Part shown: piece after piece, positions 17,300 through 42,458 of the stretch
Position numbering within the stretch: the first letter of the stretch is position 1
Layout: each line of letters begins with the position of its first letter
From: Pseudomonadota bacterium
GTDB lineage: Bacteria; Pseudomonadota; Gammaproteobacteria; Steroidobacterales; Steroidobacteraceae
Assembly (NCBI GenBank): GCA_021792755.1
Contig: JAJYUA010000004.1
Location: 62,001-126,000, forward strand
DNA length: 64,000 nucleotides
Reading direction: 5' to 3'
The notes under the pieces: model-generated
What the model was told of the DNA's origin: nothing
Seen by the model: the letters and a program-made list of their open reading frames with translations, nothing else
The model's database searches: none
Program-made: the position numbers and the translations under genes

Positions 17300-17751
17300 C
17301 CTCATTGGCGGCGGGCGCTGCCGGCGCCTGCAGCGAAAGGCCCCGCACGGTTGCCGCGGGCCGAGCCGGGCGGGCCAAGCCCGAGCACGGCGATCGAGCG
17401 GGGCGGGCGGTTGTGGCGCGCATCCGATCCGGCGCCGCTCGCGGGCAGCCGGGGCCTGCGGCCGGCGAAAATCGCCCCCGGGGGATTTCGTCCCGGGGCG
17501 CGATGCGCTAGCGTATCGGGGGGCTCGGCCCTGCACTTCGACGGCGCCATGCAACGAGAGCAAAGAGATTTCCGGTCGCTGCGGCCTGCGCGTGGTAACG
17601 GTATCAACCGCGCCCGGGCAGCGGCAACGCCGATGGCGTGCGCAGGGCGGCCGACGCGTGCGGGGACGGGGGGCGTGTCGAGCGCGAGATCGCTGTCCTG
17701 GAGCGCCGTGTCGGACTGCCGTTTGGCCGCGCGAGGCGTTCGGTCGGGTCG
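17300..17751. other. Intergenic region with one operator
   Basis: These 452 bases between the TonB receptor and the TPR-glycosyltransferase gene contain a perfect LacI-type operator (17593-17606) and a short GC-rich hairpin just after the receptor stop (GGCGC/GCGCC near 17315). I see no convincing gene or strong promoter hexamers in the rest. Confidence 0.5.
17593..17606 (+). promoter_or_regulatory. LacI-type operator, TGGTAACGGTATCA
   Basis: A 14-of-14 match to the operator shared across this window (TGGTARCGRTAYCA), 146 bases upstream of the TPR-glycosyltransferase start. The TATCAA inside it could act as a -10 box. It places a GT41-like gene under the same repressor as the xylose genes, if the site is functional. 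Confidence 0.6.
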
Positions 17752-20070
17752 ATGAGCGAAGGCCCCCGCACCGCCCAGGGCGTGCCTGCCCGCTCTGCCG
17801 GGGCGGACATCCATCCGCTGCAGCGGGCGAGCGAGCTGTACGCCCAGGGACAGTGGGCCGAGGCCGAGGGGCTCTGCCGAGCCTTCCTGCAGCGCCAGCC
17901 CGATCATCCCGGCGCCCTCGGCCTGCTCGGCATTCTGCTGGCGCGCACGCGCAGGGCAGAGGAAGCCGAGCGGATGCTCGGCCGCGCGGCGGCGGCGATG
18001 CCGGACAGCGCCGAGGCGCACACCAACCACGGCAACGCTCTGCGCGCTCTCGGCCGATATGAGGAGGCGCTGGCGTGCTACGAGCGGGCGCTTGCCCTGA
18101 AGCCCGACAGCGCCCTCGCCCACTACAACCGCGGTCTGGCGTTGAGCGACCGGCAACACTACGATCAGGCGATCGAGAGCTACGAACGGGCCATCGGCTT
18201 CGATCCGGACTATGCCGCGGCCTGGAACAACCGCGCAGCCGCGTTGCACGAGCAGGGCCGCCATGAGCAGGCGCTCGCCAGCGTCGAGCGGGCGATCGCT
18301 CTGCAGCCGAGGTTTCCCGCCGCGCACTGCAACCACGGCATCACCTTGCGGGTGGTGGGACGGCCCGAAGAGGCGCTGGAGAGTTTCCAGCGCGCGCTCG
18401 CGCTGCAGCCGAATTTTGCGCAAGCGCACGCCCACCGGGGCGCCACCCTGAGCTCGATGGGTCGATATGCCGAGGCGCTTGCAAGCTTTGACGCTTCTCT
18501 CGCCGTCGACCCGCGCTGTCTGACTGCGCACGCGAATCGGGGAGCGGCCCTGTGTGAGCTGAAGCGCTATCGCGAGGCGCTCGAGAGTCTCGAGCGGGCG
18601 ATCGCCCTGGGTCATCGGGACGCCCACACGTACCATTGCCGCGCCGTGGCGCTAGAGGAGCTCGGCGCCTTCGAGCAGGCGATTGCGAGCTACGCGCAGG
18701 CGCTTGCAATCGACCCGCGCAGCCGCTTCCTGCGGGGAAATTGCCGCCACGCCCGGATGCAGATTTGCGACTGGGAAGGCCTCGAGAGCGACAGGGCCGC
18801 CCTCACCGCCGCCCTCGAGCGCGGCGAGGCGGCCGCCACGCCCTTCGTCGTGCTCTCGCTCATCGACTCGCCCGCGCTGCAGCGGCGCGCCGCCGAGATC
18901 TGCGTGCGTGGCAAGCCGGCGCGGGCCGCGCTTGCGAGTGCCGCACCCCATCCCCGCCACGACAGGATCCGCGTCGGCTATTTCTCCGCAGACCTCGGCA
19001 ATCATGCGGTCGGCTTGCTTGCGGCCGGGCTGTTCGAGGCCCACGATCGATCCGGCTTCGAGCTGACCGCCTTTTCTCTCGGGCAGCGCGTGTCCGACGG
19101 GTTGGGCGAGCGCGCCAAGGCCGCGTGCGATCGTTTCCTTCAGCTCGAGGCACGGACCGATCAGGATGTCGCCGCCCTGGCGAGGGGGCTGGAAATCGAC
19201 ATCGCGGTCGACCTCGGCGGGTATACCCGTGACGCCCGCCCGGGCATCATGGCGCTGCGCGCCGCTCCCGTGCAGGTGAGCTACCTGGGGTATCTGGGCA
19301 CCCTGGGCGGGCTGGTCGATTACCTGCTCGCCGACCCGGTGCTCGTGCCCGGGGAGGCCAGAGAGCACTACTGCGAGAAGATCGCCTACCTGCCGAGCTA
19401 CCAGGTCAATGACGGCAAGCGGCCCGTCGCCGGCGGGGCTTTTACCCGCGCCGCGCTCGGCCTGCCGGCTTCGGGGTTCGTCTTCTGCTGCTTCAACAAC
19501 ACCTACAAGATCACCCCTGAGACCTTCGACAGCTGGATGCGCATCCTCTGCGCGGTGCCGGACAGCGTGCTGTTTCTGCTGGGCGGATCGCCGGCCGCGC
19601 AGCGCAACCTGCGCCGCGAAGCCGCGCGGCGCGCCATCCCGCCCGAGCGGCTGGTGTTCGGCGGCGTGCTGCCCATGGAGCAATATCTGGCCCGCTACCG
19701 CGCGGCCGACCTGTTTCTCGACACCTTGCCCTACAACGCGGGCACCACCGCCTCCGATGCGCTGTGGGCGGGGCTGCCGGTGCTGACCTTGCCCGGGCAG
19801 TCTTTCGCTGCGCGCATGGCCGCCAGCATTCTCACCTCCGCGCAGCTACCCGAGCTCATCGCGCACAGCCGCGCCGATTACGAGCGCCGCGCGATCGAGC
19901 TCGCCACCGACGGGCGGCGCATCGAGGCGCTCAAAGGCAAGCTCGCCGCGAATCGCGGCCGCTGCCCATTGTTCGACACGACAGCCTGCGCACGCAATCT
20001 CGAATCGCTCTACCGGCAGATGTACGAGCGGCACCGCGCGGGTATGCCTGCCGAGCATCTGTATTCGTGA
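17752..20070 (+). CDS. TPR / O-GlcNAc-transferase-like (GT41) protein
   Basis: The 772-aa protein has about ten TPR repeats (residues 25-370, each like AHYNRGLALSDRQHYDQAIESYERA) followed by a SPINDLY/OGT-type GT41 domain. Visible GT41 features are RVGYFSADLGNHAVG (the catalytic-loop His region), VDLGGYTRDARPGI, CCFNNTYKITPETFDSWMRIL (UDP-binding Lys) and FLDTLPYNAGTTASDALWAGLPVLT (UDP-sugar binding). It probably transfers GlcNAc or a related sugar to Ser/Thr of bacterial proteins in the cytoplasm. The ATG is chosen because upstream codons are not family-like; the ribosome-binding site is weak. It is convergent with the halogenase gene. Confidence 0.87.
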   Translation: MSEGPRTAQGVPARSAGADIHPLQRASELYAQGQWAEAEGLCRAFLQRQPDHPGALGLLGILLARTRRAEEAERMLGRAAAAMPDSAEAHTNHGNALRALGRYEEALACYERALALKPDSALAHYNRGLALSDRQHYDQAIESYERAIGFDPDYAAAWNNRAAALHEQGRHEQALASVERAIALQPRFPAAHCNHGITLRVVGRPEEALESFQRALALQPNFAQAHAHRGATLSSMGRYAEALASFDASLAVDPRCLTAHANRGAALCELKRYREALESLERAIALGHRDAHTYHCRAVALEELGAFEQAIASYAQALAIDPRSRFLRGNCRHARMQICDWEGLESDRAALTAALERGEAAATPFVVLSLIDSPALQRRAAEICVRGKPARAALASAAPHPRHDRIRVGYFSADLGNHAVGLLAAGLFEAHDRSGFELTAFSLGQRVSDGLGERAKAACDRFLQLEARTDQDVAALARGLEIDIAVDLGGYTRDARPGIMALRAAPVQVSYLGYLGTLGGLVDYLLADPVLVPGEAREHYCEKIAYLPSYQVNDGKRPVAGGAFTRAALGLPASGFVFCCFNNTYKITPETFDSWMRILCAVPDSVLFLLGGSPAAQRNLRREAARRAIPPERLVFGGVLPMEQYLARYRAADLFLDTLPYNAGTTASDALWAGLPVLTLPGQSFAARMAASILTSAQLPELIAHSRADYERRAIELATDGRRIEALKGKLAANRGRCPLFDTTACARNLESLYRQMYERHRAGMPAEHLYS

Positions 20071-20102
20071 GCAAGGCCTCAGGGTGCGCCATGCCGTGCG
20101 AA

Positions 20103-21608
20103 TCACTGCGGCGGCGCGGCGCGACAGTGCCGCTCGATGAACTCCTCGTGCGCGGGCATGGTGGCGGCGCAACCGGCCACCACCTCGCGGATCTCGCTCA
20201 GCGCCGCCTGCGGGTTCGGGCCGAGACTGTCCGCGAAAGGGTCGTACCCGGCAGTCTCGACGCCCTGGCCGTTGAGCACGTGAAACCAGCTTTGGGCCGA
20301 GAACAGCTCGTTCTCATCGCGCAGGAGCCGTCCGTGGGTGCGGAACAGCTCGAGGCGCTCTGCGAGGCTCTCGGGAAGCTCGGTGCTGCGGCAGTGGCGC
20401 CAGAACTCCTCCTCACGCTGCGTGAAACGATAGTGCGCCACCAGGAAGTCCCGGGCGCGCTCGTAGTCGAACGCGAGCTGCCGGTTATAGCGATCGATGT
20501 CCGGCTGGCGGAAATGGCGGTCGGGGAAGAGCCTGAGCAGCATGAGGATGCCGCGCTGGATCAGGTGGATGCCGGTGGACTCGAGCGGCTCGAGGAAGCC
20601 CGCGGACAGGCCGATCGCCACGCAGTTCCTGTTCCAGCATTGCCGGCGCCGCCCGGTGGTGAATCTCAGGCGCAGCGGCTCGCGCGTCGGGCGGCCCTCG
20701 AGACTGCCGAGGAGAATATCCTGCGCCGCATCGTCACCGATGAACTGGCTGCTGTAGACGTAGCCGTTGCCGACGCGATGCTGCAAGGGAATGCGCCATT
20801 GCCAGCCGACGCGGCGCGCGGTTGCGAGCGTATGTGAAGAGAGCGGTCCTGCGCGCTCGCACGGCACGGCGACGGCCCGATCGCAGGGGAGCCAACGTGT
20901 CCAGTCCTCGTAGCCGGTCTTCAGCGCCCCCTCGATCAACAGGCCGCGAAATCCCGTGCAATCGATGAAAAGGTCGGCGGTGAGCCGCTCGCCGCTCTCG
21001 AGCGTGACGCAATCGATGAAGCCGTCCTCGGGGCGCAAGGCGACGCTGCGCACCTTGCCTTGCGCGCGCACGACTCCCCGCGCTTCGGCGCACGCGCGCA
21101 AATAGGCCGCGAACAGCGTTGCGTCGAAGTGCAGAGCATAGACGATGGTGGCAAGCGGCGAGTGCATGCGGGCGACGGGGCGCATGAACCTGCCCTGACG
21201 CGCGGCGAGCGCCTGCAGGGAATAGACCTCGAGCGGCGCCGCCGTGCCGCCGAGCGCGCATTTGTGCCAGTAGGCATGGAAGGGGACGCCGCCCTTGGGC
21301 AGGCCCGTGGGACCGAACGGGTGTATGTAGCTCTGTCCCGGCCGTGTCCAGTCCTTGAACTCGATCCCGAGCTTGAAGGTGGCCTGCGTCTTGCGGACCA
21401 GGTCGTCCTCGTCGATGGAGTGGGTGTGCAGGTAGTCGATGATCGGCGGGATGGTCGCCTCGCCGACGCCCACCGTGCCGATCTCCTGCGACTCGATGAG
21501 CCGGATGGCGCCCCTGAGGTGAGGGAAGGACTTCGACAGCGTCGCGGCGGTCATCCAGCCCGCGGTGCCTCCCCCGACGATGAGGACGCTTCGGATCGGC
21601 TCATTCAT
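20103..21608 (-). CDS. Tryptophan-halogenase-like FAD-dependent protein (orphan copy)
   Basis: The 501-aa protein has the flavin-dependent halogenase fold: a GGGTAGW FAD motif at residues 12-18, a Lys at position 79 (TFKLGIEFKDW) at the place of the catalytic Lys of PrnA, the W-x-W-x-I-P signature (GWQWRIPLQH, Trp269 and Trp271) that blocks monooxygenase activity, and EPLESTGIHL with a Glu at 343. A typical halogenase would use FADH2, O2 and a halide. Genes of this branch next to TonB receptors have no proven substrate. The ATG is favoured over a GTG one codon upstream. It reads away from the receptor operon, with its own operator upstream. Confidence 0.85.
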   Translation of the reverse strand: MNEPIRSVLIVGGGTAGWMTAATLSKSFPHLRGAIRLIESQEIGTVGVGEATIPPIIDYLHTHSIDEDDLVRKTQATFKLGIEFKDWTRPGQSYIHPFGPTGLPKGGVPFHAYWHKCALGGTAAPLEVYSLQALAARQGRFMRPVARMHSPLATIVYALHFDATLFAAYLRACAEARGVVRAQGKVRSVALRPEDGFIDCVTLESGERLTADLFIDCTGFRGLLIEGALKTGYEDWTRWLPCDRAVAVPCERAGPLSSHTLATARRVGWQWRIPLQHRVGNGYVYSSQFIGDDAAQDILLGSLEGRPTREPLRLRFTTGRRRQCWNRNCVAIGLSAGFLEPLESTGIHLIQRGILMLLRLFPDRHFRQPDIDRYNRQLAFDYERARDFLVAHYRFTQREEEFWRHCRSTELPESLAERLELFRTHGRLLRDENELFSAQSWFHVLNGQGVETAGYDPFADSLGPNPQAALSEIREVVAGCAATMPAHEEFIERHCRAAPPQ

Positions 21609-21724
21609 CACGACCTGCGCTCCCGGTGCCCGCGGTAATGCCTCGCCAGGCTCTCGCCAAGCGCCCGGCAGCCCGTGCGGCCCAAGTGGGGGTGTTCTCG
21701 ATCATGGTACCGGCCGCCCGCGCA

Positions 21725-21738
21725 GAGTAACGATATCA
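21725..21738 (-). promoter_or_regulatory. LacI-type operator, GAGTAACGATATCA
   Basis: A 12-of-14 match to the shared operator, 117 bases upstream of the minus-strand halogenase-like gene and just downstream of a minus-strand TTGAAG. Confidence 0.5.
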
Positions 21739-22218
21739 ACTCTATCGCTTCAAGCCCGGGACCGCCGGCGCGCGGCACAGGGTGCCGCGCCGGTCGGCTC
21801 TCTTGCGACGAGGCCGTGCCCCGACGCGCCGCCTTTCCATTGACCGCGCCCGAACAGGCCCGTGTGACCGGCGCCGGGAACTCACCTCTTGAGGTCGCCA
21901 TGACAGCGATGTCATACTCCATCTCTGCGCGTGCGGACCGCAAGCGCGCTCCTCCGGCGCACGCTCCAGCCGCGCAGGCGCTTTGTCCTCATCGTGTCGC
22001 GCCTCGCCAACGCAGCCGATGGCCAACGGCGCCGGTGCGACCGGCAGCGCCGAGCCTGAGCCCGGCCGCAGCCATGATTACGCAATCAGCCCGTGAGCGG
22101 TCGGACGAAAGCGGCGGTGGCGCAACGCGGCGGGCAGGAGTCGAGACTGATTCTAGTGTTGTGGAGAAGCCTGGGAAATCCCGGATTCCAGGGAGGGGCG
22201 GGGAACGCGGAAAGGCTG

Positions 22219-22248
22219 TTGACAGGAAAGTGGGACGAGGAACATACT
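22219..22248 (+). promoter_or_regulatory. Sigma-70 promoter of the TonB receptor operon
   Basis: TTGACA at 22219-22224, an 18-base spacer, and CATACT at 22243-22248. The expected transcription start near 22255 is immediately followed by a LacI-type operator (22261-22274), the layout of a roadblock or initiation repressor site. Confidence 0.6.
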
Positions 22249-22260
22249 GCTTCGGCCGTT

Positions 22261-22274
22261 AGATAGCGGTACCA
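22261..22274 (+). promoter_or_regulatory. LacI-type operator, AGATAGCGGTACCA
   Basis: A 12-of-14 match to the shared operator at about +5 to +20 of the predicted transcript, 134 bases before the TonB receptor start. Confidence 0.6.
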
Positions 22275-22407
22275 TATTCCGGAGCGACAGAGACCAGAGG
22301 ACCGGACGGGGAGTGGAAAAGCTGCCGAAAAGGATTCGATCCGGCCGGCAGCCGTTCATGTTGCTGTGTAACAACGTTCAGGCGCTTTCGATAGAGGGGG
22401 CTTTTCA

Positions 22408-25400
22408 ATGAGTCGGAAGACATTACGTAATGCAACCAAGAACGCGGCCAAGAAGAGCGCAAGAATCCGGACGCTGAGTAGCTCCGCCTACGCGAAACTC
22501 GGTCTGTCAGGGCTCGCCCTGGGATCTCTCGCCCTCGGTGCCGGGGGCGTCGCGCACGCCCGAAGCGCCCCGGCGAAGGGATCGAGGCGCCCGATCGTTC
22601 CGGGAAAGGCGGCGAAGGTCAGGCGGCGCGGTTTCAAGGCGACACCGATGGCCTCATCGGGCGAGTTCAACCTCGGCGGGGCGGGGCTGTATGCCCAAAC
22701 CTCGGTGCCCGACCCCGGCACTCCCGCGAGGGGCAAATCCGTGGCGGAATCGGCCACGGCGCTGCAGCCGATCATCGTCACCGGTATCCGCGGGTCCTTG
22801 ATGCGATCGCTGCAGATCAAGAAGGAGTCGATCGGCGTGGTCGATGCGATCTCCGCCGAGACGATCGGCCAGTTCCCCGATTCCTCGGTCGGCGGCGCCC
22901 TCGCGCATCTGCCGGGGGTCACCGTCAACCGCGGTTCGCTCGCGTACGCCAGTTCCTTCGGAGCGCCGACCGCCACGGGTCTGCCGCAGGGCTTCAATGT
23001 CAACGGCTTCGGCGGATCGTTCAACACGGTTCTGCAGGACGGCCGGCAGATTGCCTCCGGCAACGGGCAGACCTTCAACGTCTCCACCGTCGGCGCGATG
23101 TGGGTCGGCGAAATCGATACCTTGAAGACCCCGGACATGGCCCTCTCCTCGGGCAACATCGGCTCCGTGGTCAACATCAAGCCCCTCACTCCCTTCATGA
23201 ATCCCGGCCTGCACGGCGCGGTGAACATCGGCCAGACCGATTACCCGATGGACGGGGGCATGCGGCCGGCCGTGGGCGCTTTGTTCAGCGACACGTTCGA
23301 CCACAACAAATTCGGCATCCTCGTCGACGGCGACTATACCGACTACAGCACCCTCACCCACCATCAGGACGTCGTCGGATGGAAGGGCCTCGCCGCCGGG
23401 GCGTTCGCCTGCTCGGACCTCGCGGCCAACTACACCACCGCTTTCGGCAGCACGGGCTGCGCGAACGTGGGGCCCGGGGCCACGGGCGATGCGCAGGTGC
23501 CGGTCTGGTACCCGCAGGACATGGCCATGTATCTGGAGCGCATCAACACGCGCAGCAAAGACGGGCGCGTAGCGCTGCAATGGCATCCGACCAAGGCGGT
23601 GCTGGTGACGCTCGACGAGAACTACTCGTCGTGGGATCAGCACATCAACCGCTGGCAGCGCAGCACCTGGTTCGGGGCCTTCCCCGGCGCCACGCTCGAC
23701 GGCAACGGCACGATCAGTAATTTCAATTACACGGGTCCCACCGACTTCAATGCGTTCGTCGCCGACCAGTACATCGTTACGAACACCTATGGCCTGAACG
23801 TTCTGTGGAACGTCAACGACAACTGGACGCTCGATGTCGATGCCGACCAGTCCAAGTCGCAGTTGAATCCCAATGGCACCTACAGCGACATCGACTCCGA
23901 CGTGGGCTTCGGCGACGTCACCAACAACTACACCGGCGGACTCGCTCTGAACAAGAGCGCCAACGTGCTGCCGTACTGGAGCGCCTACGGACCGGGCGCC
24001 GTCGCCTCCGGCTCGAGCGCGGTCGCCTCGCCGAATTACAACGGACTCAATCCGTTCATCATCGGCTCGCACGTGCTGCCGCTTCAGACCCAGCAGAACT
24101 CCGATCAGATCAACGAGGCGAAGATCGACGCCACCTGGAACCCGGGAAACGACACCAAGGTGCAATTCGGGGCGCAATTCCTCGACGACGACTGGAACAC
24201 CAAGGAGTTCGACACCTTCACGAACAACTACTGGGAGCTCTGGGCGGGCTACGGGCCGGCCTCGGGCAATACGCAAGGCGTCCCGTTGCCATCGTCGCTC
24301 TTCAGGGCGGTCAATGTCGGCAACTGGATGCCGGGCTACAGCGGCGGCGGCAATCTGCCTGCCAGCCTGCTGGTGTACAGTCCGTACTCGGTGCTCAACT
24401 ATCTGATGACCCAGCCGATCGACTCGGGCTGGACGCCGACCAAAGGTTACCCGAAGTACACCGGCGGTGTTCCCACGGAGGCGTTGAGCCCGACTTCGGT
24501 GCAGCACGTCTCGCGCATGAACTACGCGCCGTTCGTGCAGGTGAGCCACAATTTCAGGGTTGAAGGCATGAGGCTCATGACGCGGCTCGGGCTGCGGTAC
24601 CAGAAGACCGACGAGATGATCGCGGGCCTCGCGGCGCCGGTGACGAGCGTGGCGTGGGTGGGCAAGAGCGACCCGACGGCGTACAAGTTCGCCACCGGCA
24701 CGGCGAAGTGGACACAGGTGACCAACTCCTACGGCTTCTTCCTGCCGGCGCTCGACCTGGCCCTCTGGCCCACCCGCGAGCTGGAAGTGGCGGTCGATTT
24801 CTCGCGCACGGAATCGGCGCCGCCGGACTTCCAGCTGATTCCAAACTCGGCCTACGGTGGGCGTGTCAACGCGCTGACCGCGACCGGAAACAACCCCGGC
24901 CTGATGCCGTACCTGTCCAACAACTACGATCTGAGGCTGTCGTGGTATTACGCGCCGAACGACTACGCGGAGGTGCATCCGTTCTACAAGCAGGTGTCGA
25001 ACTTCCCGACTTCCAGCGTGACGGACGTCACGCTTCCGATCAACGATCCGGCGCCGTGCACCTACAGCGCCGGCGGCACGGTCGTGTTCAACGATCCGGG
25101 CTGCGGCAAGCCGATGGTGTTCGCGGAGACCACCTACACGAACAAGCTGTCGGCGGACGTCACCGGCGTGTCGGCCACCTGGCAGCAGATGCTGCCGTAC
25201 GGATTCGGCGTCATGATCAATGGAACGTGGATGCATGACAACGCGAATTTCAACAACTACAGCCTGGACTCGAACCAGTTCGCGCTCACGGGTGTCGGCA
25301 GCTCGGCGAACGGCACCCTGTTCTACCAGCGCAACAAGTGGCAGGCGCGGATCACCGTGAACTGGCAGGCGAAGCTGCTGCTGTTCACCGGTCAGGAGCA

Positions 25401-25620
25401 GGGGGGCGGGGCCTTCGGCAACGAGCCGGTGTATCAGGCGCCGTTCACGCAGCTGGACTACGCCATGAACTACCAGGTCAACAAATACCTGAACGTGTAC
25501 TTCGACACCAATAACCTGCTGAACTCCGTCTACCACACATATGGAAGATTCCCGAATCAGACGCTGAACCTGGTCGAGTACGGCAGGTCGCTGTCGTTCG
25601 GGGTGCGGGCGCAGTTCTGA
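22408..25620 (+). CDS. TonB-dependent receptor, carbohydrate-utilisation type
   Basis: This 1070-aa outer-membrane receptor heads a five-gene operon. The N-terminus is unusually long and basic (Lys/Arg-rich residues 1-30, hydrophobic stretch 31-50, AHA cleavage region), followed by a linker of about 65 residues. The TonB box and plug read IIVTGIRGSLMRSLQIKKES, then VVDAISAETIGQFPDSSVGGALAHLPGVTVNR, the hallmark of receptors found in sugar-uptake loci of Xanthomonas and Caulobacter. The barrel ends in SFGVRAQF. GAGGGGG precedes the ATG. By operon and operator context the ligand is probably a xylose-containing oligosaccharide; this is inference. Confidence 0.92.
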   Translation: MSRKTLRNATKNAAKKSARIRTLSSSAYAKLGLSGLALGSLALGAGGVAHARSAPAKGSRRPIVPGKAAKVRRRGFKATPMASSGEFNLGGAGLYAQTSVPDPGTPARGKSVAESATALQPIIVTGIRGSLMRSLQIKKESIGVVDAISAETIGQFPDSSVGGALAHLPGVTVNRGSLAYASSFGAPTATGLPQGFNVNGFGGSFNTVLQDGRQIASGNGQTFNVSTVGAMWVGEIDTLKTPDMALSSGNIGSVVNIKPLTPFMNPGLHGAVNIGQTDYPMDGGMRPAVGALFSDTFDHNKFGILVDGDYTDYSTLTHHQDVVGWKGLAAGAFACSDLAANYTTAFGSTGCANVGPGATGDAQVPVWYPQDMAMYLERINTRSKDGRVALQWHPTKAVLVTLDENYSSWDQHINRWQRSTWFGAFPGATLDGNGTISNFNYTGPTDFNAFVADQYIVTNTYGLNVLWNVNDNWTLDVDADQSKSQLNPNGTYSDIDSDVGFGDVTNNYTGGLALNKSANVLPYWSAYGPGAVASGSSAVASPNYNGLNPFIIGSHVLPLQTQQNSDQINEAKIDATWNPGNDTKVQFGAQFLDDDWNTKEFDTFTNNYWELWAGYGPASGNTQGVPLPSSLFRAVNVGNWMPGYSGGGNLPASLLVYSPYSVLNYLMTQPIDSGWTPTKGYPKYTGGVPTEALSPTSVQHVSRMNYAPFVQVSHNFRVEGMRLMTRLGLRYQKTDEMIAGLAAPVTSVAWVGKSDPTAYKFATGTAKWTQVTNSYGFFLPALDLALWPTRELEVAVDFSRTESAPPDFQLIPNSAYGGRVNALTATGNNPGLMPYLSNNYDLRLSWYYAPNDYAEVHPFYKQVSNFPTSSVTDVTLPINDPAPCTYSAGGTVVFNDPGCGKPMVFAETTYTNKLSADVTGVSATWQQMLPYGFGVMINGTWMHDNANFNNYSLDSNQFALTGVGSSANGTLFYQRNKWQARITVNWQAKLLLFTGQEQGGGAFGNEPVYQAPFTQLDYAMNYQVNKYLNVYFDTNNLLNSVYHTYGRFPNQTLNLVEYGRSLSFGVRAQF

Positions 25621-25621
25621 G

Positions 25622-27169: not shown

Positions 27170-27182
27170 CAGGCGCCTCGCC

Positions 27183-27920
27183 ATGACCCGGATCGTACCG
27201 CTCAACAAGCAGGCGCATCGCGATCTGACAGTGGACGGGCGGCCGGCGGCAGAGTACGGGGACAATCAGCACTTCGTGCAGGTGGTGGTCGAGGAGTTCC
27301 CGCATCTGGTGGTGCACTATCCGATCCTGTTCGGCAAGGAGCAGTCCACGGGGCAGTTCTTCTGCGGCGCGATGCTGGGGTTCATCGAGGGCGAGAATCA
27401 GTTTCTGGAGGATTGGCGGCGGGACCCGGAATTCTATCGGCCGCTCAGCCTGCAGCGCGCGCCCTTCTATGCCCACGGACCGGAGCTCGCGATCGATCTC
27501 GATCACCCGCGGGTCAAGGCCGGGGGCGGACAGGGGCTGTTCACCGAGCAAGGCCAGCCGACCCGCTACCTGCAGAGCATCATCTGGGCGTTTCAGGACC
27601 TGCAGCCGGGGATCGAGCGCACCCGGATCTTCATCGCCCGCCTGCTCGAGCTCAATCTGATCGAGCCGGTGGCGATCGAAGCGGAATTCGAGGACGGCAA
27701 TCTGTACAAGTGCGAGGGGCTTTACACGGTCAACAGAGAGGTGCTCTCGGGCATGCCCGATGCCGTGGTGGTGGAGCTGTTCCGGCGCGGGTACCTCACC
27801 CTCATGCAGCTGATGGTCGCCTCCCTCAAGCAGGTGCGCGAGATGGCGCGGACGAAGAATGCGCGCCTGCTGAAGCACACCGAGGGCCTGGCGGGCATGC
27901 GCCAGGGGTCGATGGGCTGA
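27183..27920 (+). CDS. SapC family protein
   Basis: The 245-aa soluble protein has no signal peptide and matches the SapC-like family named after a Caulobacter S-layer-associated protein. Typical segments are VPLNKQAHRDLTV, FPHLVVHYPILFGK, GFIEGENQFL and RARIF-like ERTRIFIARLLELNLIEP. Members occur almost only beside TonB receptors and halogenase-like genes. Their biochemical role is unknown. It starts 13 bases after the halogenase stop and ends 32 bases before the first cupin-like gene. Confidence 0.85.
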   Translation: MTRIVPLNKQAHRDLTVDGRPAAEYGDNQHFVQVVVEEFPHLVVHYPILFGKEQSTGQFFCGAMLGFIEGENQFLEDWRRDPEFYRPLSLQRAPFYAHGPELAIDLDHPRVKAGGGQGLFTEQGQPTRYLQSIIWAFQDLQPGIERTRIFIARLLELNLIEPVAIEAEFEDGNLYKCEGLYTVNREVLSGMPDAVVVELFRRGYLTLMQLMVASLKQVREMARTKNARLLKHTEGLAGMRQGSMG

Positions 27921-27952
27921 GTTTCTGCGCAGCCGGCGATCGAGGCTTCACC

Positions 27953-28972: not shown

Positions 28973-29057
28973 TCGGGTCGCAATTGCCGCCCGATTGCGC
29001 GGGCGGGCGCTCGACGGTGAGCAGAGGCCCGCCGGGCACGTCAGAGGGGGTGGCGAA

Positions 29058-32996: not shown

Positions 32997-33026
32997 ATGG
33001 TAGCGGTATCATCGCTCGACTGTCAA
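32997..33026 (-). promoter_or_regulatory. Promoter of xylBA
   Basis: On the minus strand, TTGACA (33026-33021), an 18-base spacer and TACCAT (33002-32997). The -10 box is buried in the operator at 32998-33011, so a bound repressor would exclude RNA polymerase. Confidence 0.6.
32998..33011 (-). promoter_or_regulatory. LacI-type operator, TGGTAGCGGTATCA
   Basis: A 14-of-14 match, overlapping the xylBA -10 box and 36 bases upstream of the proposed CTG start. Confidence 0.75.
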
Positions 33027-33261: not shown

Positions 33262-33275
33262 GGGTAGCGATAGCA
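33262..33275 (+). promoter_or_regulatory. LacI-type operator, GGGTAGCGATAGCA
   Basis: A 12-of-14 match, preceded directly by TTGAAA (33256-33261). It may be an auxiliary site; its centre is 86 bases from that of the next copy, compatible with looping. Confidence 0.4.
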
Positions 33276-33333: not shown

Positions 33334-33362
33334 TTGCCAAGGCAAAATGGGAGCGCTATCAT
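33334..33362 (+). promoter_or_regulatory. Promoter of the secreted-protein operon
   Basis: TTGCCA (33334-33339), a 17-base spacer and TATCAT (33357-33362). The -10 box overlaps the operator at 33348-33361. Confidence 0.55.
33348..33361 (+). promoter_or_regulatory. LacI-type operator, TGGGAGCGCTATCA
   Basis: A 13-of-14 match lying across the spacer and -10 box, 59 bases before the TTG start of the downstream gene. Confidence 0.65.
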
Positions 33363-33419: not shown

Positions 33420-35324
33420 TTGAAAGGCAGACTTTGGCTCGCAGCGCTCGCCTTTTTGCTGGCGACCGCCCCGTGTTGGGCCGCACCCCGGCCGTACAGG
33501 AACTTCAAGGTCACGGTCTACATTCCCGTGCGCGTCGTGAGGCGCATGGCGAGCGATCCGGCGTGGATGCGCTCGAGCTGGAAGACGATCAGCGCGGCGC
33601 TGCATGTCGATCAGGTGTTCATCGAGAGTTATCGGGCCGGGGTGAGCGCCGACGGCGCGCAGCTCGATCGAGTCAAGCGCTTCTTTCTCGCCCACGGCGT
33701 CGCGGTCGCCGGCGGCATGGCGATGCTCGCTGCGGGCGGGGACGGGCAGATCCGCACTCTCGATTACGCGCTGCCGCAGGACCGCGCGCTCGCGCGGCGA
33801 ATGTCGGCGCTCACGGCGCGGCACTTCAACGAGTTCATCCTCGATGACCTGTATTTCTTCAACACCAAGAGCGATGCGGATATCGCCGCCAAGGGTGCGC
33901 GCACGTGGGCGCAATACCGCATGCAGACCATGGACTGGGTGTCGCGCAACCTCATCCTCAAGCCCGCCCGGGCGGCCAACCCGCGGGTGCGGGTCATCAT
34001 CAAGTTCCCGAACTTCTACCCTTCCTTCCAGGGGATGGGATTTGACCTCGAGAGCGAGCCGAAGATCTTTGGGCAGATCTGGACCGGGGACGAGACGCGC
34101 TATGCGCCCACCACCGATCAACAGCTGCTGCCTTACGAGAGCTACGAGATCTTCCGCTACTTCGAGAACATCGCCCCGGGCAGGAACGGTGGCGGCTGGG
34201 TCGACCCGATCGCGATGCATGATCTCGACCGCTATGCCGAGCAGCTCTGGGACACGATCCTCGCCAGGGCGCCGGCGATCAACCTGTTCGAGTACTCGAG
34301 CCTGCTCAGGATCGCCAATCCGAAGAACCGCGCCGCCTGGCGGGATCTGCCGACCACGTTCAACTACTGGCGGATGATGAAGAAGTGCTGCGGTGTTCCC
34401 GGTACCTCGGGCTTCAAGTATCCGCGGCTCGCCAACGTGGCCGCCTACGCGCTGCGCCAGGTCGATCGGATCGCGGGCCACCTCGGGGAGCCGCGGGGCC
34501 TTGCCACCTACCGGCCGCTCGACTCCAGCGGCGAGGACTTCCTGCCCGAGATGCTCGGCATGATCGGCGTACCGATCGAAATGTATCCGCATTGGCCGAA
34601 GGCCCACACCGTGCTGCTGACGGAAGCGGCGCGACAGGATCCGCGCATCGTCGCGCAGATAGAGTCGCACCTGCTCGCCGGCGATCGGGTGATCATCACC
34701 TCGGGCCTGCTGCGCGTGCTGCAGAAGCGTGGGTTCGGCCAGGTCACCGACATGCGCGTCACCCATTCGATCGCCGCGCCCACCCGCTATGTGCAGGGCT
34801 ACGGTTTCGGCGCCGGCACGATGATCGGCAAGAGCCGCCCGATCCTCTTCCCGCTGATTCACTTCTATACCAACGAGGACTGGGCCGTGATACGCGGACT
34901 CGACGACGACGGCGGCGTGCCGCTGCTGCTGATGGACCACTATGGCAAGGGCGAGCTGTACGTGCTCGATGTTCCCGAAGAGCAGAACGATTTCTACTCT
35001 CTGCCGCCGCGGGTGCTCGATGCGCTCAGGCGCTATCTCACCCCGGGGCTGCCGCGGCTTGCCGGACCGGCGCGGGTCAGCCTGTTCGAATACGACAACG
35101 GCGCTCTGGTGCTCGAGTCCTACCGCAACCACCCGGTTGCCGTGCGCGTGATCGATCGATCGGCCCACCTCGAGGACCTCGACAACGGCGTGGAATTGAG
35201 CGGAGAGCCGGTGGCCGCGGTACGGTTTGACGGCGGCGGCGCTCGGGCGGGCGCGTCGCGCGAATACGGCTACGAGCTTCGGGTCGAGCCGCACAGCCTC
35301 CTCGCCTTGGGGGTACGGTCGTGA
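33420..35324 (+). CDS. Secreted protein, possible unrecognised glycoside hydrolase
   Basis: I do not recognise this 634-aa protein as a named family. It begins at TTG with GGGGGA just upstream and has a signal peptide ending in CWAAP (near residue 22). The first 380 residues alternate strands and helices like a TIM barrel, with acidic strand ends typical of sugar hydrolases: FIESYRAG, FNEFILDDLYFF (Asp142, Asp143), VIIKFPNFYP, IWTGDETRY (Asp224, Glu225) and INLFEYSS. The next part (about 400-470: AHTVLLTEAARQDPRI, GDRVIITSGLL) looks like the glutamine-amidotransferase-like domain of GH42-type enzymes, then a beta-rich C-terminus. It overlaps the SGNH gene (GTGA) and lies under the xylose-type operator. 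Confidence 0.6.
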   Translation: MKGRLWLAALAFLLATAPCWAAPRPYRNFKVTVYIPVRVVRRMASDPAWMRSSWKTISAALHVDQVFIESYRAGVSADGAQLDRVKRFFLAHGVAVAGGMAMLAAGGDGQIRTLDYALPQDRALARRMSALTARHFNEFILDDLYFFNTKSDADIAAKGARTWAQYRMQTMDWVSRNLILKPARAANPRVRVIIKFPNFYPSFQGMGFDLESEPKIFGQIWTGDETRYAPTTDQQLLPYESYEIFRYFENIAPGRNGGGWVDPIAMHDLDRYAEQLWDTILARAPAINLFEYSSLLRIANPKNRAAWRDLPTTFNYWRMMKKCCGVPGTSGFKYPRLANVAAYALRQVDRIAGHLGEPRGLATYRPLDSSGEDFLPEMLGMIGVPIEMYPHWPKAHTVLLTEAARQDPRIVAQIESHLLAGDRVIITSGLLRVLQKRGFGQVTDMRVTHSIAAPTRYVQGYGFGAGTMIGKSRPILFPLIHFYTNEDWAVIRGLDDDGGVPLLLMDHYGKGELYVLDVPEEQNDFYSLPPRVLDALRRYLTPGLPRLAGPARVSLFEYDNGALVLESYRNHPVAVRVIDRSAHLEDLDNGVELSGEPVAAVRFDGGGARAGASREYGYELRVEPHSLLALGVRS

Positions 35325-36631: not shown

Positions 36632-37355
36632 CAAGGCGCGCCGCGAAAATGACGCGGGTTGTCCAACGCGAGGCGCGCCCGCCCCGCGGCGAGAGCTGCG
36701 GCCGCGGCGCCGGCGCGCTGCCCGCGGGGCGTTTGCCTTGCGGGGCTGAGCGGCCGTCCGTCGCGCCCCTTGAGGACGGCAGGAGGCGGGAGGGGTGAGC
36801 TCCTTCGCCTCGGCGTCGCGGTTACCGAGGGACCGGGATGTGTGTCGGGGCGCAGGCGGGTCCGCCCCCGTTACCCCCGGGGCGCCTTGCACGCCGGGGA
36901 TGCGCACTGCGCGTGAGGTCTTCGGCGACTCGGGCGGCGGGGCCGGGCCGCGCCGACCGTCTACGCCCCCGCTCGAGGACTAAGGCGGGCCGCCGTTGTC
37001 GAGCCCCGGGCAGGGGGGAGGCCGTCCCGGGGGTATCGAGCCTGAGCGGCAAGGGCGTGCGCGGCCAGACCGAGGGAGCTTGGCCCCCCCGTCGCGGGGG
37101 CGCCGCCGCGGGCTCGCCGGCCGCGCACAGCGCCTCACCGGGCACGAGGGCGCGAAGGGGTGCTCAGTGAGCGGTGCTCGCGCATTTCAGTCGAGCCGCC
37201 GGGGGTGGTAACGATATCATATCGGGGTTGTACCGTTGAAATCCGCCGCTTTGCGAGTTGGCGAATGCCATGTCGTGAGCGGGCGGGCGTGTGATAATGT
37301 CCGCCCGCCGTGCGTTGTCGGATAACAGCGCGAAGAAACGTCCGATCATCAGCAG
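36632..37355. other. Long non-coding gap before the LacI-type gene
   Basis: 724 bases, extremely GC-rich until about 37180. I see no coding-like frame, repeat or RNA gene in 36632-37200. Near 37206 composition drops and an operator appears, followed by 136 bases of leader before the regulator gene. Confidence 0.5.
37206..37219 (+). promoter_or_regulatory. LacI-type operator, TGGTAACGATATCA (autoregulation)
   Basis: A 14-of-14 match, 136 bases upstream of the LacI-family gene. TATCAT (37215-37220) inside it could be the -10 box; the -35 region is poor. It implies that the repressor controls itself. Confidence 0.65.
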
Positions 37356-38423
37356 ATGAACAAACCGGCACGCAAGACCCGCAGTGGCGCCCGCGGCAGC
37401 ATCACCATCAAGGACGTGGCCCGTTATGCCGGCGTGTCGCCGATGACCGTTTCACGGGTCGTCAACGGCAGCCAGTATGTGAGCGATGCCACGCGCCAGA
37501 CGGTGCTGCAGGCCGTGCGGCGGCTCGGCTACTCGCCGAACATCGCCGCCCGCAACCTCGCCAGCGCCCGCGGCGAGCGCATGGGCCTGCTCTACGGCAA
37601 CCCGAGCGCCTCCTACCTCAGCGAATTCCTGGTCGGGGCGCTCGATGCGGCCACCCGGCACGGCGTGCAGCTCGTGCTGGAGAAGTGCGAGCTCACCCCG
37701 GCCGCATCCCGCCGCGCGGTCCGCCGGCTGGTCTCGGGCGGGGCGGTCGGGGCGGTGTTGCCGCCGCCGCTGTGCGAATCGACCGTCATCTGCGCGGAGC
37801 TGCAGGCGGCGCGCATGCAGATCGTGGCAGTGGCCGCGGGCCGCCCGCCGGCGGAGCTCATGTGCGTGCGGATCGATGATTTCGCGGCGGCGCGGGAGAT
37901 GACCCGCTACCTGCTCGCCCTCGGGCACGAGCGGCTCGGCTTCATCAAGGGCCACCCCAATCAGACCGCGAGCGAGGAGCGCTGGCGCGGGTTCTCCTCG
38001 GTGATCCAGGAGGCCGGTCACCTGCCGGCCCCGCGCGTCGAGCAGGGCTTCTTCACGTTCCGCTCCGGGCTCGATGCCGCGCGCAAGCTCCTCGCCGCCG
38101 AGCCGGCGCCGACCGCGATCTTCGCCAGCAACGATGACATGGCGGCGGCAGTGATGGCCGAAGCGCACCGGCGCGCCCTGGAAGTGCCGCACGACCTGAC
38201 TGTCGTGGGATTCGACGACAGCCTGATCGCCTCGACCATCTGGCCCGGGCTCACCACCATCCATCAGCCGATCGCGCAGATGGCCGGCGAGGCCGTGGAT
38301 CTGTTGGTTACCGCGGTGCGCGGCGGCAAGGGCCACGGGCCGGCCGAGTCCGCGCACCGGTTGGTCGCCTACGAGCTGGTGGCGCGCGAATCGGCGGCCC
38401 GTCCCAAGGGTGCGGCCGTTTGA
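37356..38423 (+). CDS. LacI-family transcriptional repressor, probable xylose regulator
   Basis: The 355-aa protein has an N-terminal LacI helix-turn-helix at residues about 16-40 (TIKDVARYAGVSPMTVSRVVN), the hinge helix SPNIAARNLASAR, and a periplasmic-binding-protein-like sensor ending in FDDSLIASTIWPGLTTIHQP. The YSPN hinge and the CG-centred palindromes nearby agree with LacI/GalR operator recognition. It sits between the secreted-enzyme operon and the sugar symporter, all carrying the same 14-bp site, so it is the likely local repressor. The inducer is presumably xylose or a derivative. No good ribosome-binding site precedes the ATG. Confidence 0.92.
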   Translation: MNKPARKTRSGARGSITIKDVARYAGVSPMTVSRVVNGSQYVSDATRQTVLQAVRRLGYSPNIAARNLASARGERMGLLYGNPSASYLSEFLVGALDAATRHGVQLVLEKCELTPAASRRAVRRLVSGGAVGAVLPPPLCESTVICAELQAARMQIVAVAAGRPPAELMCVRIDDFAAAREMTRYLLALGHERLGFIKGHPNQTASEERWRGFSSVIQEAGHLPAPRVEQGFFTFRSGLDAARKLLAAEPAPTAIFASNDDMAAAVMAEAHRRALEVPHDLTVVGFDDSLIASTIWPGLTTIHQPIAQMAGEAVDLLVTAVRGGKGHGPAESAHRLVAYELVARESAARPKGAAV

Positions 38424-38467: not shown

Positions 38468-38481
38468 TGGTAGCGATACCA
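38468..38481 (+). promoter_or_regulatory. LacI-type operator, TGGTAGCGATACCA
   Basis: The most symmetric copy (12 of 14 bases palindromic), ending only 13 bases before the symporter ATG and next to its ribosome-binding site. Confidence 0.75.
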
Positions 38482-38494
38482 CGACGGGGGTGAT

Positions 38495-39994
38495 ATGAGC
38501 AAGGGCAATACGGGGCTCGTGGTCGCGCTGACGGCCGCCGCGACGCTCGGTGGACTGCTGTTCGGCTACGACACGGCGGTGATCTCGGGGGTGACGAGCG
38601 CGATCACCCATAATTTCGTCGCCCCGCGCCACCTCGCCGAAGCGAGCGCGAACTTTCTCTCCGGTCTTGCGATCTCCATCGCGCTCATCGGCTGCGCGAT
38701 CGGCGCGGGGCTCGCCGGTCCGATCTCGACGCGCATCGGACGCAAGGCAGGACTGCTCATCGCCGGCATATTGTTCTTTGTCTCCTCCCTCGGGGCGGGT
38801 TACCCGGAGTTCATCTGGAGCCTGTTCGGCGCGACCGGCTATCAGGCGCTGCCGGCCTTTCTCGCCTATCGCACGTTGGCGGGCATGGCGATCGGCATGG
38901 CCTCGATGCTGGCGCCGATGTACATCGCGGAGGTCGCCCCGCCGGAAAAGCGCGGCATGCTGGTCACCTTCCAGCAGATCGCGATCGTCGTCGGGATCAT
39001 GCTCGTGTACTTCGTCAACGCGGGCATCCAGGCCGGCCACACCCGTGCCTACCTCATGACGACGGCCTGGCGTCACATGCTCGCCTCGGCGGCCTTACCG
39101 GCGATGCTGTTGGTCATTGCGATGTTGTTCGTGCCGGAGACGCCGCGATTTCTGGTGCTGAAGGATCGCGACACCGAGGCGCTGTCGCTGTTGAGGCGCC
39201 TGGTCGGCGCCGATGCCGCGCAAAGAACCCTCCAGGAGATCAAGGGCACGCTCATCGAGCACAGCCGGCCGCTGCTGAGCTTCGGCGTGCTGGTGCTGGT
39301 GGTGGGGATTCTGCTGTCGGTGTTCCAGCAGGTCGTCGGCATCAACGCCGTGCTCTACTATGCGCCGCACATGTTCGAGAACATGGGCGCCTCGACCAAC
39401 CAGGCGTTGTGGGAAACGGCGATTTTCGACGGGGTGACCATGACCTTGTTCACCCTGGTGGCGACCTTCACGGTGGACAGGCTCGGCCGCAGGCCGCTGC
39501 TGATCAGCGGGGCGCTGGTCATGGCCGCGGCCATGATTCTTCTCGGGTTCCTTTTCGATCTGCACGTCGTCAGCGCGGGGGTGGGGCAATCCGGGGCGGC
39601 CTCGGGCGGGCCGTCGTACCTCGCGCTCGCGGCGGTGGTGCTGTACATCATGGGGTTCTCGATCTCCTGGGGACCGGTGGTGTGGGTCATGCTTGCGGAG
39701 ATCTATCCGAACGCGATCCGAGGCAAGGCCATGTCGGTCGCGGTCGCGGCGCAGTGGATCATGAACTTCATCGTCTCGCTCACCTTCCCGATGATGGACG
39801 GCAGCGCATACCTGAATGCGCGTTTCAACCACGGCTTCGCCTACTGGATCTACGGAGCCTGCTCGATCCTCGCCGCGGTGTTCGTGATGCGCTTCGTGCC
39901 CGAGACCAAGGGCCGCTCGCTCGAGTCCATCCAGGATCTGTGGCACGCCCGGCGCAAGGGCGCCACCATCGCGCCGGCGCCGGCGGCCAAGTAG
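38495..39994 (+). CDS. MFS sugar:proton symporter, XylE-like
   Basis: The 499-aa inner-membrane protein has twelve predicted helices and all sugar-porter signatures: GLLFGYDTAVISG in helix 1, the cytoplasmic loop motifs STRIGRKAG and DRLGRRPLL, YIAEVAPPEKRG after helix 5, QQVVGINAVLYYAP in helix 7 (sugar-binding QQ..N), and PETKGRSLE after helix 12 region. It most resembles D-xylose:H+ symporter XylE. GGGGG precedes the ATG. The operator and the xylA/xylB genes support xylose as the substrate; glucose or arabinose cannot be excluded from sequence alone. Confidence 0.92.
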   Translation: MSKGNTGLVVALTAAATLGGLLFGYDTAVISGVTSAITHNFVAPRHLAEASANFLSGLAISIALIGCAIGAGLAGPISTRIGRKAGLLIAGILFFVSSLGAGYPEFIWSLFGATGYQALPAFLAYRTLAGMAIGMASMLAPMYIAEVAPPEKRGMLVTFQQIAIVVGIMLVYFVNAGIQAGHTRAYLMTTAWRHMLASAALPAMLLVIAMLFVPETPRFLVLKDRDTEALSLLRRLVGADAAQRTLQEIKGTLIEHSRPLLSFGVLVLVVGILLSVFQQVVGINAVLYYAPHMFENMGASTNQALWETAIFDGVTMTLFTLVATFTVDRLGRRPLLISGALVMAAAMILLGFLFDLHVVSAGVGQSGAASGGPSYLALAAVVLYIMGFSISWGPVVWVMLAEIYPNAIRGKAMSVAVAAQWIMNFIVSLTFPMMDGSAYLNARFNHGFAYWIYGACSILAAVFVMRFVPETKGRSLESIQDLWHARRKGATIAPAPAAK

Positions 39995-40088
39995 CCGCGC
40001 CGGGCGGGGCGGCGGGGGCGCTGCGCGCACGGCCGCGCCGGCGCTAAACTGCGTGTTTTCGGGCTTGGCTGGCCCGGGAGGTCGACCG

Positions 40089-41627
40089 ATGCACCGTCGC
40101 GAATTCCTGCAGAATTCCCTCGCGGTCGGCAGCGCCGCGATGAGCTGGATGGTGCTGGCGCCGATGGGCGCGCGGGCCGCCGAGCGCGACTTGGTCGAGG
40201 TGACGCTCGAGGCCCGGCCGTACCGCTACCCCGCGGCAAGCGGCGCGCGATTCACCGGCCTTGCGTACAACGGCCGGGTGCCGGGTCCGCTGCTGCGCGT
40301 GCGGTACGGACAGACCTTCCGTGCGCGCTATCTGAACCGCACGGGCGGAGCGAGCACCATCCACTGGCACGGCATGATCCTGCCGAACGACATGGATGGC
40401 GTGCCGTACGTCACCCAGCCACCGGTGCCCGATGGCGGGGAGTTCACCTACACCTTCAAGCCCGATCCTCCCGGATTTCGCTGGTATCACTCCCACGTAG
40501 GCGATCAGGAGGCACTCGGCCTGTTCGGCGCATTTCTGGTCGAGGACCCGCGCGATCCGCACGCCGACGTCGAGGCGGTCCTGGTGCTGCACGACGTGCC
40601 GGACATGCGCAGCTTCCGGGAGGCGCTCGCCGGCAAGAGCACTGCGACGATGAATAGGCCGCCGGGCCTGAACTTCAACGGCATGCACGCCTTGCCGGCC
40701 GCGCATGCGATGGGCGCCATGGGCGCCATGGGCGGCATGGGTGATAGGAGTCACCGGGGCGCAATGGCCCGGTCCATGACGTCGATGCCCATGGGCGATG
40801 AGCTGTCGTACTTGTCTCATTGCGTGAGCGGCGAGGCCTATCCGCACACGCGCCCGATCCTCGTCAAGGTGGGACAGACCGTGAGGCTGCGGATCCTCAA
40901 CGCGAGTCCCACCCTCACGCACTACGTGCGGCTGGCGGGGCACAGGCTGCGTGTCACGCACAGCGACGGTAACCCCATGCCCCGCGCGGTGACGGTCGAT
41001 GCGCTGCGCATCGGGGTTGCGGAGCGGTACGACGCCTGGTTCGAGGTGACCCGCCCGGGCGCCTGGCTGCTGACGAGCCTGATGGGCGATACGCGCGATC
41101 ACCGCCAGTCGATACTGATCCGCACGCCCGATGCGGCCAACCGCGTCCCCGAGGTGCCTGCACCTTCACTCGAGGGCGCGCAGCTGTTCACCTATCGGCT
41201 GGCCGGGGTCGGCACGCCGCTGCCGCCCGATGCGCACGACCCGTACGGTTGGGCGAACGTGCGCAAGACTCTGCTGCTCGGCGGAGGCAAGCCGGGCCAC
41301 CGGCATTGGACGATCGACGGCACGATCTGGCCGCACACGCCCAAAATCGACGTGCGTCACGGCGATCGCGTGCTGATCCACTTCAAGAATCCGACCGACA
41401 TGGATCATCCGATGCACCTGCACGGTCACGTGTTCGAGCTGGTGGAGCAGTCCGGGCTGCGACTGCACTATCCGCTGCCGAAGGACACGACACTGGTGCC
41501 CGCGGGCGGCACGAGCACCTGGCGCTTCCTCGCCGACTCGCCTCCCGGGCGTTGGGTGTTGCACTGTCACGATGTCATACACATGATGGACGGAATGATG
41601 ACCGAGGTCGACTACGTGCCGGCGTGA
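40089..41627 (+). CDS. Tat-exported multicopper oxidase, CopA/PcoA-like
   Basis: The 512-aa periplasmic oxidase has a twin-arginine signal (MHRREFLQN, cleavage near ARA-A) and the three cupredoxin domains with all copper-binding blocks: HWHGM, WYHSH, HPMHLHGH and HCHDVIHMMDGMM (type 1 Cys and axial Met). Residues about 198-236 form a Met/His-rich insert with MGAMGAMGGMG, as in copper-resistance oxidases that bind or oxidise Cu(I). GGGAGG lies before the ATG and TAAACT upstream (near 40045) could be a -10 box. It has no LacI-type operator, so it is probably independent of the sugar genes. Confidence 0.9.
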   Translation: MHRREFLQNSLAVGSAAMSWMVLAPMGARAAERDLVEVTLEARPYRYPAASGARFTGLAYNGRVPGPLLRVRYGQTFRARYLNRTGGASTIHWHGMILPNDMDGVPYVTQPPVPDGGEFTYTFKPDPPGFRWYHSHVGDQEALGLFGAFLVEDPRDPHADVEAVLVLHDVPDMRSFREALAGKSTATMNRPPGLNFNGMHALPAAHAMGAMGAMGGMGDRSHRGAMARSMTSMPMGDELSYLSHCVSGEAYPHTRPILVKVGQTVRLRILNASPTLTHYVRLAGHRLRVTHSDGNPMPRAVTVDALRIGVAERYDAWFEVTRPGAWLLTSLMGDTRDHRQSILIRTPDAANRVPEVPAPSLEGAQLFTYRLAGVGTPLPPDAHDPYGWANVRKTLLLGGGKPGHRHWTIDGTIWPHTPKIDVRHGDRVLIHFKNPTDMDHPMHLHGHVFELVEQSGLRLHYPLPKDTTLVPAGGTSTWRFLADSPPGRWVLHCHDVIHMMDGMMTEVDYVPA

Positions 41628-42352: not shown

Positions 42353-42416
42353 GGCTCCTCGTCATCACGCGGGCGGGCCGCGCCGATCATCCTGCGCCAC
42401 GCGCGCGGCAACCGTA

Positions 42417-42430
42417 TAACATCGCTATCA
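42417..42430 (-). promoter_or_regulatory. Degenerate LacI-type operator upstream of the HAD gene
   Basis: TAACATCGCTATCA, an 11-of-14 match directly abutting the stronger copy at 42431-42444. Confidence 0.4.
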
Positions 42431-42458
42431 TGGTATCGCCGCCATTTCCCGCCTTCAA
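42430..42458 (-). promoter_or_regulatory. Promoter of the HAD phosphatase gene
   Basis: On the minus strand TTGAAG (42458-42453), a 17-base spacer and TACCAT (42435-42430). The same TACCAT -10 inside an operator is used by xylBA. Confidence 0.55.
42431..42444 (-). promoter_or_regulatory. LacI-type operator, TGGTATCGCCGCCA
   Basis: A 12-of-14 match (counting T as allowed at position 6), overlapping the -10 box of the HAD gene. Confidence 0.55.

Follow-up and report, generated by a model that had tools for sequence, protein, structure and literature searches.

Xylose regulons under a LacI-type repressor are known from Xanthomonas and Caulobacter. According to excerpts of the published reports, on which all our comparisons with the literature draw, Xanthomonas XylR is a LacI-type repressor whose operator, the xyl-box TGGTAGCGCTAACA, is a 14-bp CG-centred palindrome, and its targets include xylose isomerase and xylan genes (PMC10380989, PMC7748154). 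Caulobacter crescentus XylR, likewise a LacI-type repressor, has an operator of 14 bp in the xylX promoter (PMC7198004), and the Caulobacter xylose palindrome, given as 20 bp, also lies before Xanthomonas genes for TonB-dependent receptors (Blanvillain et al., PMC1790865). Palindromic operators, sugar effectors and, in 72% of the factors, autoregulation are features of LacI-family regulons (Ravcheev et al. 2014, PMC4052901). Here we describe a system with these properties in a 64,000-nucleotide stretch of a Steroidobacteraceae genome (assembly GCA_021792755.1, contig JAJYUA010000004.1, positions 62,001 to 126,000), hereafter the window. Similar palindromes lie around a LacI-family repressor gene at 37356-38423, and we estimate a probability of roughly 0.86, judged from sequence comparisons, that they are operators of this repressor, which would be an autoregulated XylR-type regulator of a glucuronoxylan and xylose regulon.

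The resemblance to the xyl-box regulon is close. The repressor has a LacI helix-turn-helix (HTH) together with sugar-binding domains, its putative operator is near TGGTAGCGCTAACA (the strong sites agree with it at 12 of 14 places, by eye; PMC10380989), sites before xylA and xylB are conserved, and there are sites at xylan genes. In four Dyella loci (L085, L101, L103, L108), TGTTAGCGCTACCA, the exact reverse complement of TGGTAGCGCTAACA, was found past the 5' end of the xylB match, at a distance of about 100 bp, with a LacI gene related at 49-51% nearby. The site before the repressor gene is conserved here, whereas the excerpts report no effect of xylose on xylR expression in wild-type Xanthomonas (PMC10380989, PMC7748154). 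Also unlike the Xanthomonas XylR regulon, the xylose symporter gene directly follows the repressor gene, and a GT41-like gene, a SapC-family gene, cupin genes and a secreted family, denoted Sec634, are candidate targets. Caulobacter uses xylose by an oxidative pathway. Unlike in Caulobacter, the window encodes the isomerase pathway. Elsewhere in the genome, a one-mismatch site precedes a sugar-acid dehydratase gene near a xylose-dehydrogenase-like gene. These results extend the xyl-box regulon to another gammaproteobacterial genus.

The motif is a 14-bp CG-centred palindrome, TGGTARCGNTAYCA, slightly wider than TGGTARCGRTAYCA. Matches to TGGTARCGRTAYCA with at most three mismatches numbered 31 in the window, against 9.2 expected from shuffles (standard deviation 3.29, largest 17), and all ten sites of a preliminary description of this DNA, which had proposed a ten-site LacI-type regulon, were among them. 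We then scored sites with a symmetric matrix. Its source was 42 relatives' loci, several of which shared one genome, with 79 sites that were exact or had one mismatch. Only the 30 distinct sequences entered, none of them from the window; as the sites were chosen with the same consensus (at most one mismatch), some dependence of the matrix on the motif remains. Seven window positions scored at least 14, whereas 200 matrices with permuted columns gave 0.36 such positions on average and never more than 4. The candidate operators are as follows.

17593-17606, plus strand: candidate operator TGGTAACGGTATCA before the GT41-like gene; exact, matrix score 21.9
21725-21738, minus strand: weak candidate operator before halogenase 1; matrix score 11.2
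22075-22088, plus strand: possible extra operator TGATTACGCAATCA, absent from the preliminary description; matrix score 15.5
22261-22274, plus strand: candidate operator before the TonB-dependent receptor operon; matrix score 17.9
32998-33011, minus strand: candidate operator before xylBA; exact, matrix score 22.1
33262-33275, plus strand: weak upstream candidate operator of the secreted-protein operon; matrix score 11.7
33348-33361, plus strand: candidate operator of the secreted-protein operon, over the promoter spacer and -10; matrix score 19.2
37206-37219, plus strand: candidate operator before the repressor gene (autoregulation); exact, matrix score 23.0
38468-38481, plus strand: candidate operator 27 bp before the symporter start; exact, matrix score 22.7

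The four sites first described as exact (17593, 32998, 37206 and 38468) were indeed exact. They make up four of the six exact places of TGGTARCGNTAYCA in the whole genome (3.76 Mb, 57 contigs); the remaining two are at C49:39337 and C51:48125, and exact and one-mismatch places together number 12. A genome scan had been suggested as a check on the regulon, and it bore out the clustering of exact sites in the window. When up to two mismatches are allowed, the genome has fewer matches to the motif (45+39) than to the reversed control pattern (114+137), and two-mismatch matches therefore prove nothing by themselves.

The motif is also enriched in relatives. Among 80 loci around LacI relatives, 55 contained a site, with 43 exact and 40 one-mismatch sites in all. 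Of 30 permuted palindromes searched in the same loci, 26 had no exact site and three had one; the outlier, with 11 exact and 39 one-mismatch sites, is TGATRGCGNYATCA, which differs little from the motif. Summed over 58 genomes of the genus, there were 143 exact strand-matches versus 33 for the reversed control, a perfect palindrome being counted twice.

The genes referred to below are as follows.

17638-20070, plus strand: tetratricopeptide repeat (TPR) and GT41 (O-GlcNAc-transferase-like) gene, candidate target; start at 17638 or 17752 (Pfam Glyco_transf_41)
20103-21611, minus strand: flavin-dependent (tryptophan-type) halogenase 1, candidate target (Pfam Trp_halogenase)
22408-25620, plus strand: TonB-dependent receptor, Xanthomonas-Caulobacter type (TIGR01782, above cut-off)
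25622-27169, plus strand: halogenase 2, presumed in the TonB-receptor operon (Pfam)
27183-27920, plus strand: SapC-family gene, presumed in the TonB-receptor operon (Pfam)
27953-30167, plus strand: two Cupin_8 genes (27953-28972 and 29058-30167), presumed in the TonB-receptor operon (Pfam)
30189-31505, minus strand: xylA, xylose isomerase (TIGR02630, above cut-off)
31502-32962, minus strand: xylB, xylulokinase (TIGR01312, above cut-off)
33420-35324, plus strand: Sec634, secreted protein without a family match; 45% paralog on contig C51
35321-36631, plus strand: secreted GDSL/SGNH esterase-like protein (Pfam Lipase_GDSL_2)
37356-38423, plus strand: LacI-family repressor, XylR-type (Pfam LacI, Peripla_BP_1, Peripla_BP_3)
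38495-39994, plus strand: XylE-like D-xylose/proton symporter (NF007484, 578 bits; PDB XylE, E 2.7e-134)

The best solved relative of the symporter is XylE. The xylB gene seemingly starts with CTG at 32962 on the minus strand, as a conserved-looking N-terminus, YLGIDIGTSSVKA, was seen by eye upstream of the listed GTG.

We next compared orthologous promoters, defined as the 350 bases before genes of at least 65% identity with at least 150 bases upstream, identical stretches being taken once. A promoter was counted as having a site when the matrix score was at least 14. By this measure, a site was conserved before the symporter gene (21/25), the repressor gene (16/21), xylB (5/5), xylA (11/18), Sec634 (2/2) and the TonB receptor gene (2/2), and three of four orthologs of the GDSL gene had a site of their own. 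The xylA gene lies behind xylB in the window, L142 and L160, and an own site is therefore not expected for it in these two loci. Before the TonB receptor, AGGTAGCGGTACCA was found in L146 and L156 at a distance similar to that of 22261, and two further genomes (L196, L198) have a site there too. Further stretches of relatives showed the same targets at sites. No site was found before the orthologs of halogenase 2 and SapC (own site, 0/3 each) or of PPDK, TBDR1, the sulfotransferase and both cupins (0/1 each).

The weakest sites were judged by the same comparison. One possibility is that only exact and one-mismatch sites are real, and that the weak ones at 21725, 33262, 42417 and 42431 arose by chance, which would fit the genome-wide count at two mismatches. 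The last two, a pair before a HAD phosphatase gene, scored low (11.9 and 8.9), and none of 14 orthologous HAD promoters had a site. However, 33262 has a strong counterpart in L031 (score 22.0) at about equal distance, 21725 has one before the halogenase 1 ortholog of L143 (19.6), and 22261, with two mismatches to the pattern first described, is conserved. We thus regard chance as a somewhat less probable explanation for the weak sites as a group. Of the ten sites first listed, about eight appear to be supported as candidate operators, plus possibly 22075: six are strong by the matrix (17593, 22261, 32998, 33348, 37206, 38468) and two are weak with strong counterparts (21725, 33262), while the HAD pair did not hold up and the HAD phosphatase was dropped as a regulon member. 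In L030, a perfect palindrome, TGACATCGATGTCA, lies about 75 bp upstream of the HAD gene, at the place matching 42417 of the window, and may belong to another regulator.

We examined which protein is likely to bind the sites in the 58 genomes of the genus. Twenty-seven of them, including the genome studied here, encode a relative of the repressor at about 49% identity or more. Exact sites were present in all 27 genomes with this ortholog and in 4 of the 31 without it (Fisher p 1.2e-12, a value that overstates the evidence because the genomes are kin). In one genome (G023), about 54 kb separate the repressor gene from xylA and its site. The recognition helix reads VSPMT in 76 of 80 repressor relatives and VSAMT in three, two of which are from Dyella loci with a xyl-box; one sequence is without that part. 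The co-occurrence of ortholog and sites, the conserved sites at the repressor and symporter genes and, weakly, the recognition helix support the earlier proposal that the repressor at 37356 would bind the sites.

Several observations weigh against this assignment. Four genomes (G007, G011, G071, G077) have exact sites without a LacI match of about 49% or more; completeness is only 80-84% in two of these genomes but reaches 96-98% in G071 and G077. All four encode a LacI relative of about 40% identity and so are not free of every such protein, and of the 11 genomes whose sole match is such a relative, 4 had exact sites, versus none of 20 without any match. The recognition-helix argument is weak because 24 VSPMT relatives showed no site in the stretch examined. 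None of the NCBIfam equivalog models matches the repressor above its cut-off, and the symporter does not reach the 608 bits required for NF007484 (XylE). Among the targets, GT41 has a single orthologous promoter, with an exact site (L143), only one of 12 halogenase 1 orthologs (L143) has an own site, and Sec634 paralogs of the C51 type (40-48% identity) had a site in 4 of 22 cases, L183 not being in the count. In L146 and L156, halogenase 1 lies behind xylA, which has an operator, and an own site is thus not expected there; in L192 an exact site precedes a 73% homologue of halogenase 1.

The four exceptional genomes raise the question of whether another LacI-family protein, most likely the paralog of about 42% identity on contig C3, binds the sites instead or in addition. 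The genome studied here has five LacI-type HTH matches, and a relative of about 40% is what each exceptional genome encodes. However, three of the four own paralogs have another recognition helix (VSKKT, VSSKT and VSTIT; the paralog on C45 gave no alignment), no exact site was found in 7 of the 11 genomes with only the 40% relative (G001, G016, G019, G021, G031, G033, G078), and relatives have sites before the repressor's own gene. Binding by another family member is thus very unlikely in our view, and the repressor at 37356 is the favored candidate.

The regulon would extend beyond the window. On contig C49, sites were found before a glycoside hydrolase (GH) family 67 gene with UxaC and before a UxuB-like gene. 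On C51 they precede a GH3 gene and a major facilitator superfamily carrier gene with D-mannonate dehydratase (above its cut-off). One-mismatch sites lie before GH115 (C18), before transaldolase at about 240 bases (C34), before an IlvD/Edd dehydratase gene near a D-xylose-1-dehydrogenase-like gene (C37; 342 bits, cut-off 400) and within a predicted reading frame (C47). In relatives, a GH10 xylanase gene was found at a site in one case, and in G069 xylA, xylB, GH3, GH67, UxaC, UxuB-like and repressor genes all lie within about 35 kb. The xylose link first drawn from the window is strengthened by these xylan genes with sites elsewhere in the genome. On C37 (L114, positions 22000-31000), genes for a D-xylose-1-dehydrogenase-like protein, an aldehyde dehydrogenase and an IlvD/Edd dehydratase occur together near the one-mismatch site, and an oxidative route for xylose may be encoded alongside the isomerase route.

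The abundance of glucuronate and glucuronoxylan genes among these outside targets (GH67, GH115, UxaC, UxuB-like, D-mannonate dehydratase) could mean that the repressor senses a ligand other than xylose, for example glucuronate or an aldobiouronate from glucuronoxylan, and is not a strict XylR. Yet few targets are as well conserved as xylA, xylB and the XylE-like symporter, and xyl-box regulons, in the excerpt, include xylan-degrading enzymes too (PMC10380989). Such a ligand is unlikely, and we infer that xylose is the inducer of an XylR-type repressor.

The promoter layout is consistent with repression. The operator at 33348 spans the spacer and the -10 element of a TTGCCA-17-TATCAT promoter, a layout kept in L031. 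The symporter operator starts 19 bp past TTGACA and covers the -10 position; among the records listed, which were 45 of 85, relatives' symporter promoters have TTGACA too. When sites were oriented to end in TATCA, 25 of 30 had T next, completing a TATCAT hexamer, some sites being included in both orientations. An operator lying over TATCAT would be the expected look of a repressor that blocks polymerase. We propose that, without pentose, a repressor dimer would occupy the 14-bp palindrome, over the -10 region in the clearest promoters, and would block its own gene, the xylose symporter, xylBA, the TonB-receptor cassette and the secreted-protein/esterase operon, as well as the glucuronoxylan-degrading genes elsewhere in the genome. 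Xylose or an imported xylan breakdown product would then release it.

The multicopper oxidase (MCO) gene lies after the symporter gene (38495-41627 in the window) and is nearby in 14 of the 20 closest relatives' loci showing the symporter. It may ride on the symporter operator. Control through a site of its own was rejected, as none of 13 orthologous promoters had one, and a two-mismatch match at 40482 was excluded as an operator as it lies inside the MCO reading frame.

The regulon of the preliminary description is thus well supported, minus the HAD gene and plus the xylan genes elsewhere. The system is of a known kind, and what is new are its passengers, namely the cassette of TonB receptor, halogenase, SapC and cupin genes, the GT41-like gene and the secreted family of about 640 amino acids, all candidate targets. 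TonB receptors in a xylose regulon are already known, since Blanvillain et al. report the Caulobacter xylose palindrome before such receptor genes in Xanthomonas (PMC1790865). The words 'halogenase' and 'TonB' do not occur in the main text of Ravcheev et al. as excerpted (PMC4052901). Among the matches listed in the open-licence literature, we found no report joining halogenase, SapC or cupin genes to TonB receptors or to a LacI or xylose regulon, and one halogenase genomics paper nowhere mentions TonB or carbohydrate. SapC and halogenase genes have been linked to an N-acetylglucosamine regulon of Xanthomonas (nix genes). The regulon assigns these uncharacterised genes to a single pathway that can be tested, the use of glucuronoxylan and xylose. 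It also suggests which substrates to try first for the GT41-like gene, the Sec634 family and the halogenases next to TonB receptors.

Sec634 was characterized further. Its family (13 members) had no Pfam match above the cut-off and no NCBIfam match at 0.1. PDB profile searches gave no convincing relative, one having no match up to E 10 and another a best match at E 1.4, and a plasmid search with Sec634 gave no match. Three acidic residues, D142, D143 and E225, are invariant. The protein occurs in 25 of 396 genomes of the order and in 1 of 274 of the class, the latter being the genome studied here, and all are labelled as the family of the window. A site lies at most 400 bases upstream of all six Sec634 genes at 68-89% identity, the window's own left out. 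No site was found before 40-48% paralogs from other genera (L178, L180-L182, L184, L186). Before C51-type paralogs in L161, L172, L173 and L174 there are TGACAGCGCTGTCA / TGACAGCGTTGTCA palindromes (score 10.3-10.5), which could be a variant operator or belong to another regulator.

A full-length AlphaFold model of Sec634 from seven sequences had a mean predicted local distance difference test score (pLDDT) of 45.8 and was not used. The N-terminal 327 residues were modelled as alternating strands and helices (pLDDT 65, predicted template modelling score 0.68), with good confidence for about the first 175 residues only. With this model of modest confidence, the best Foldseek match was Cwp19 (E 3.9e-03), followed by GH31 chains, none at or below 0.001; our guess is a TIM barrel of the glycoside-hydrolase type. 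Tentatively, Sec634 and its C51 paralog might found a new xylan-active family, probably of TIM-barrel glycoside hydrolases, under XylR, and the receptor-halogenase-SapC-cupin cassette might form an outer-membrane module induced by xylan, its halogenase chemistry serving either the uptake of carbohydrate or aromatic xylan decorations.

In two relatives (L145, L202), the Sec634 ortholog adjoins a gene for a CadC-like/TPR regulator of 850 amino acids, and L145 also has a cytochrome oxidase-like cluster. In the window, a cytochrome oxidase-like cluster (17-6349) lies about 27 kb from Sec634, which suggests rearrangement.

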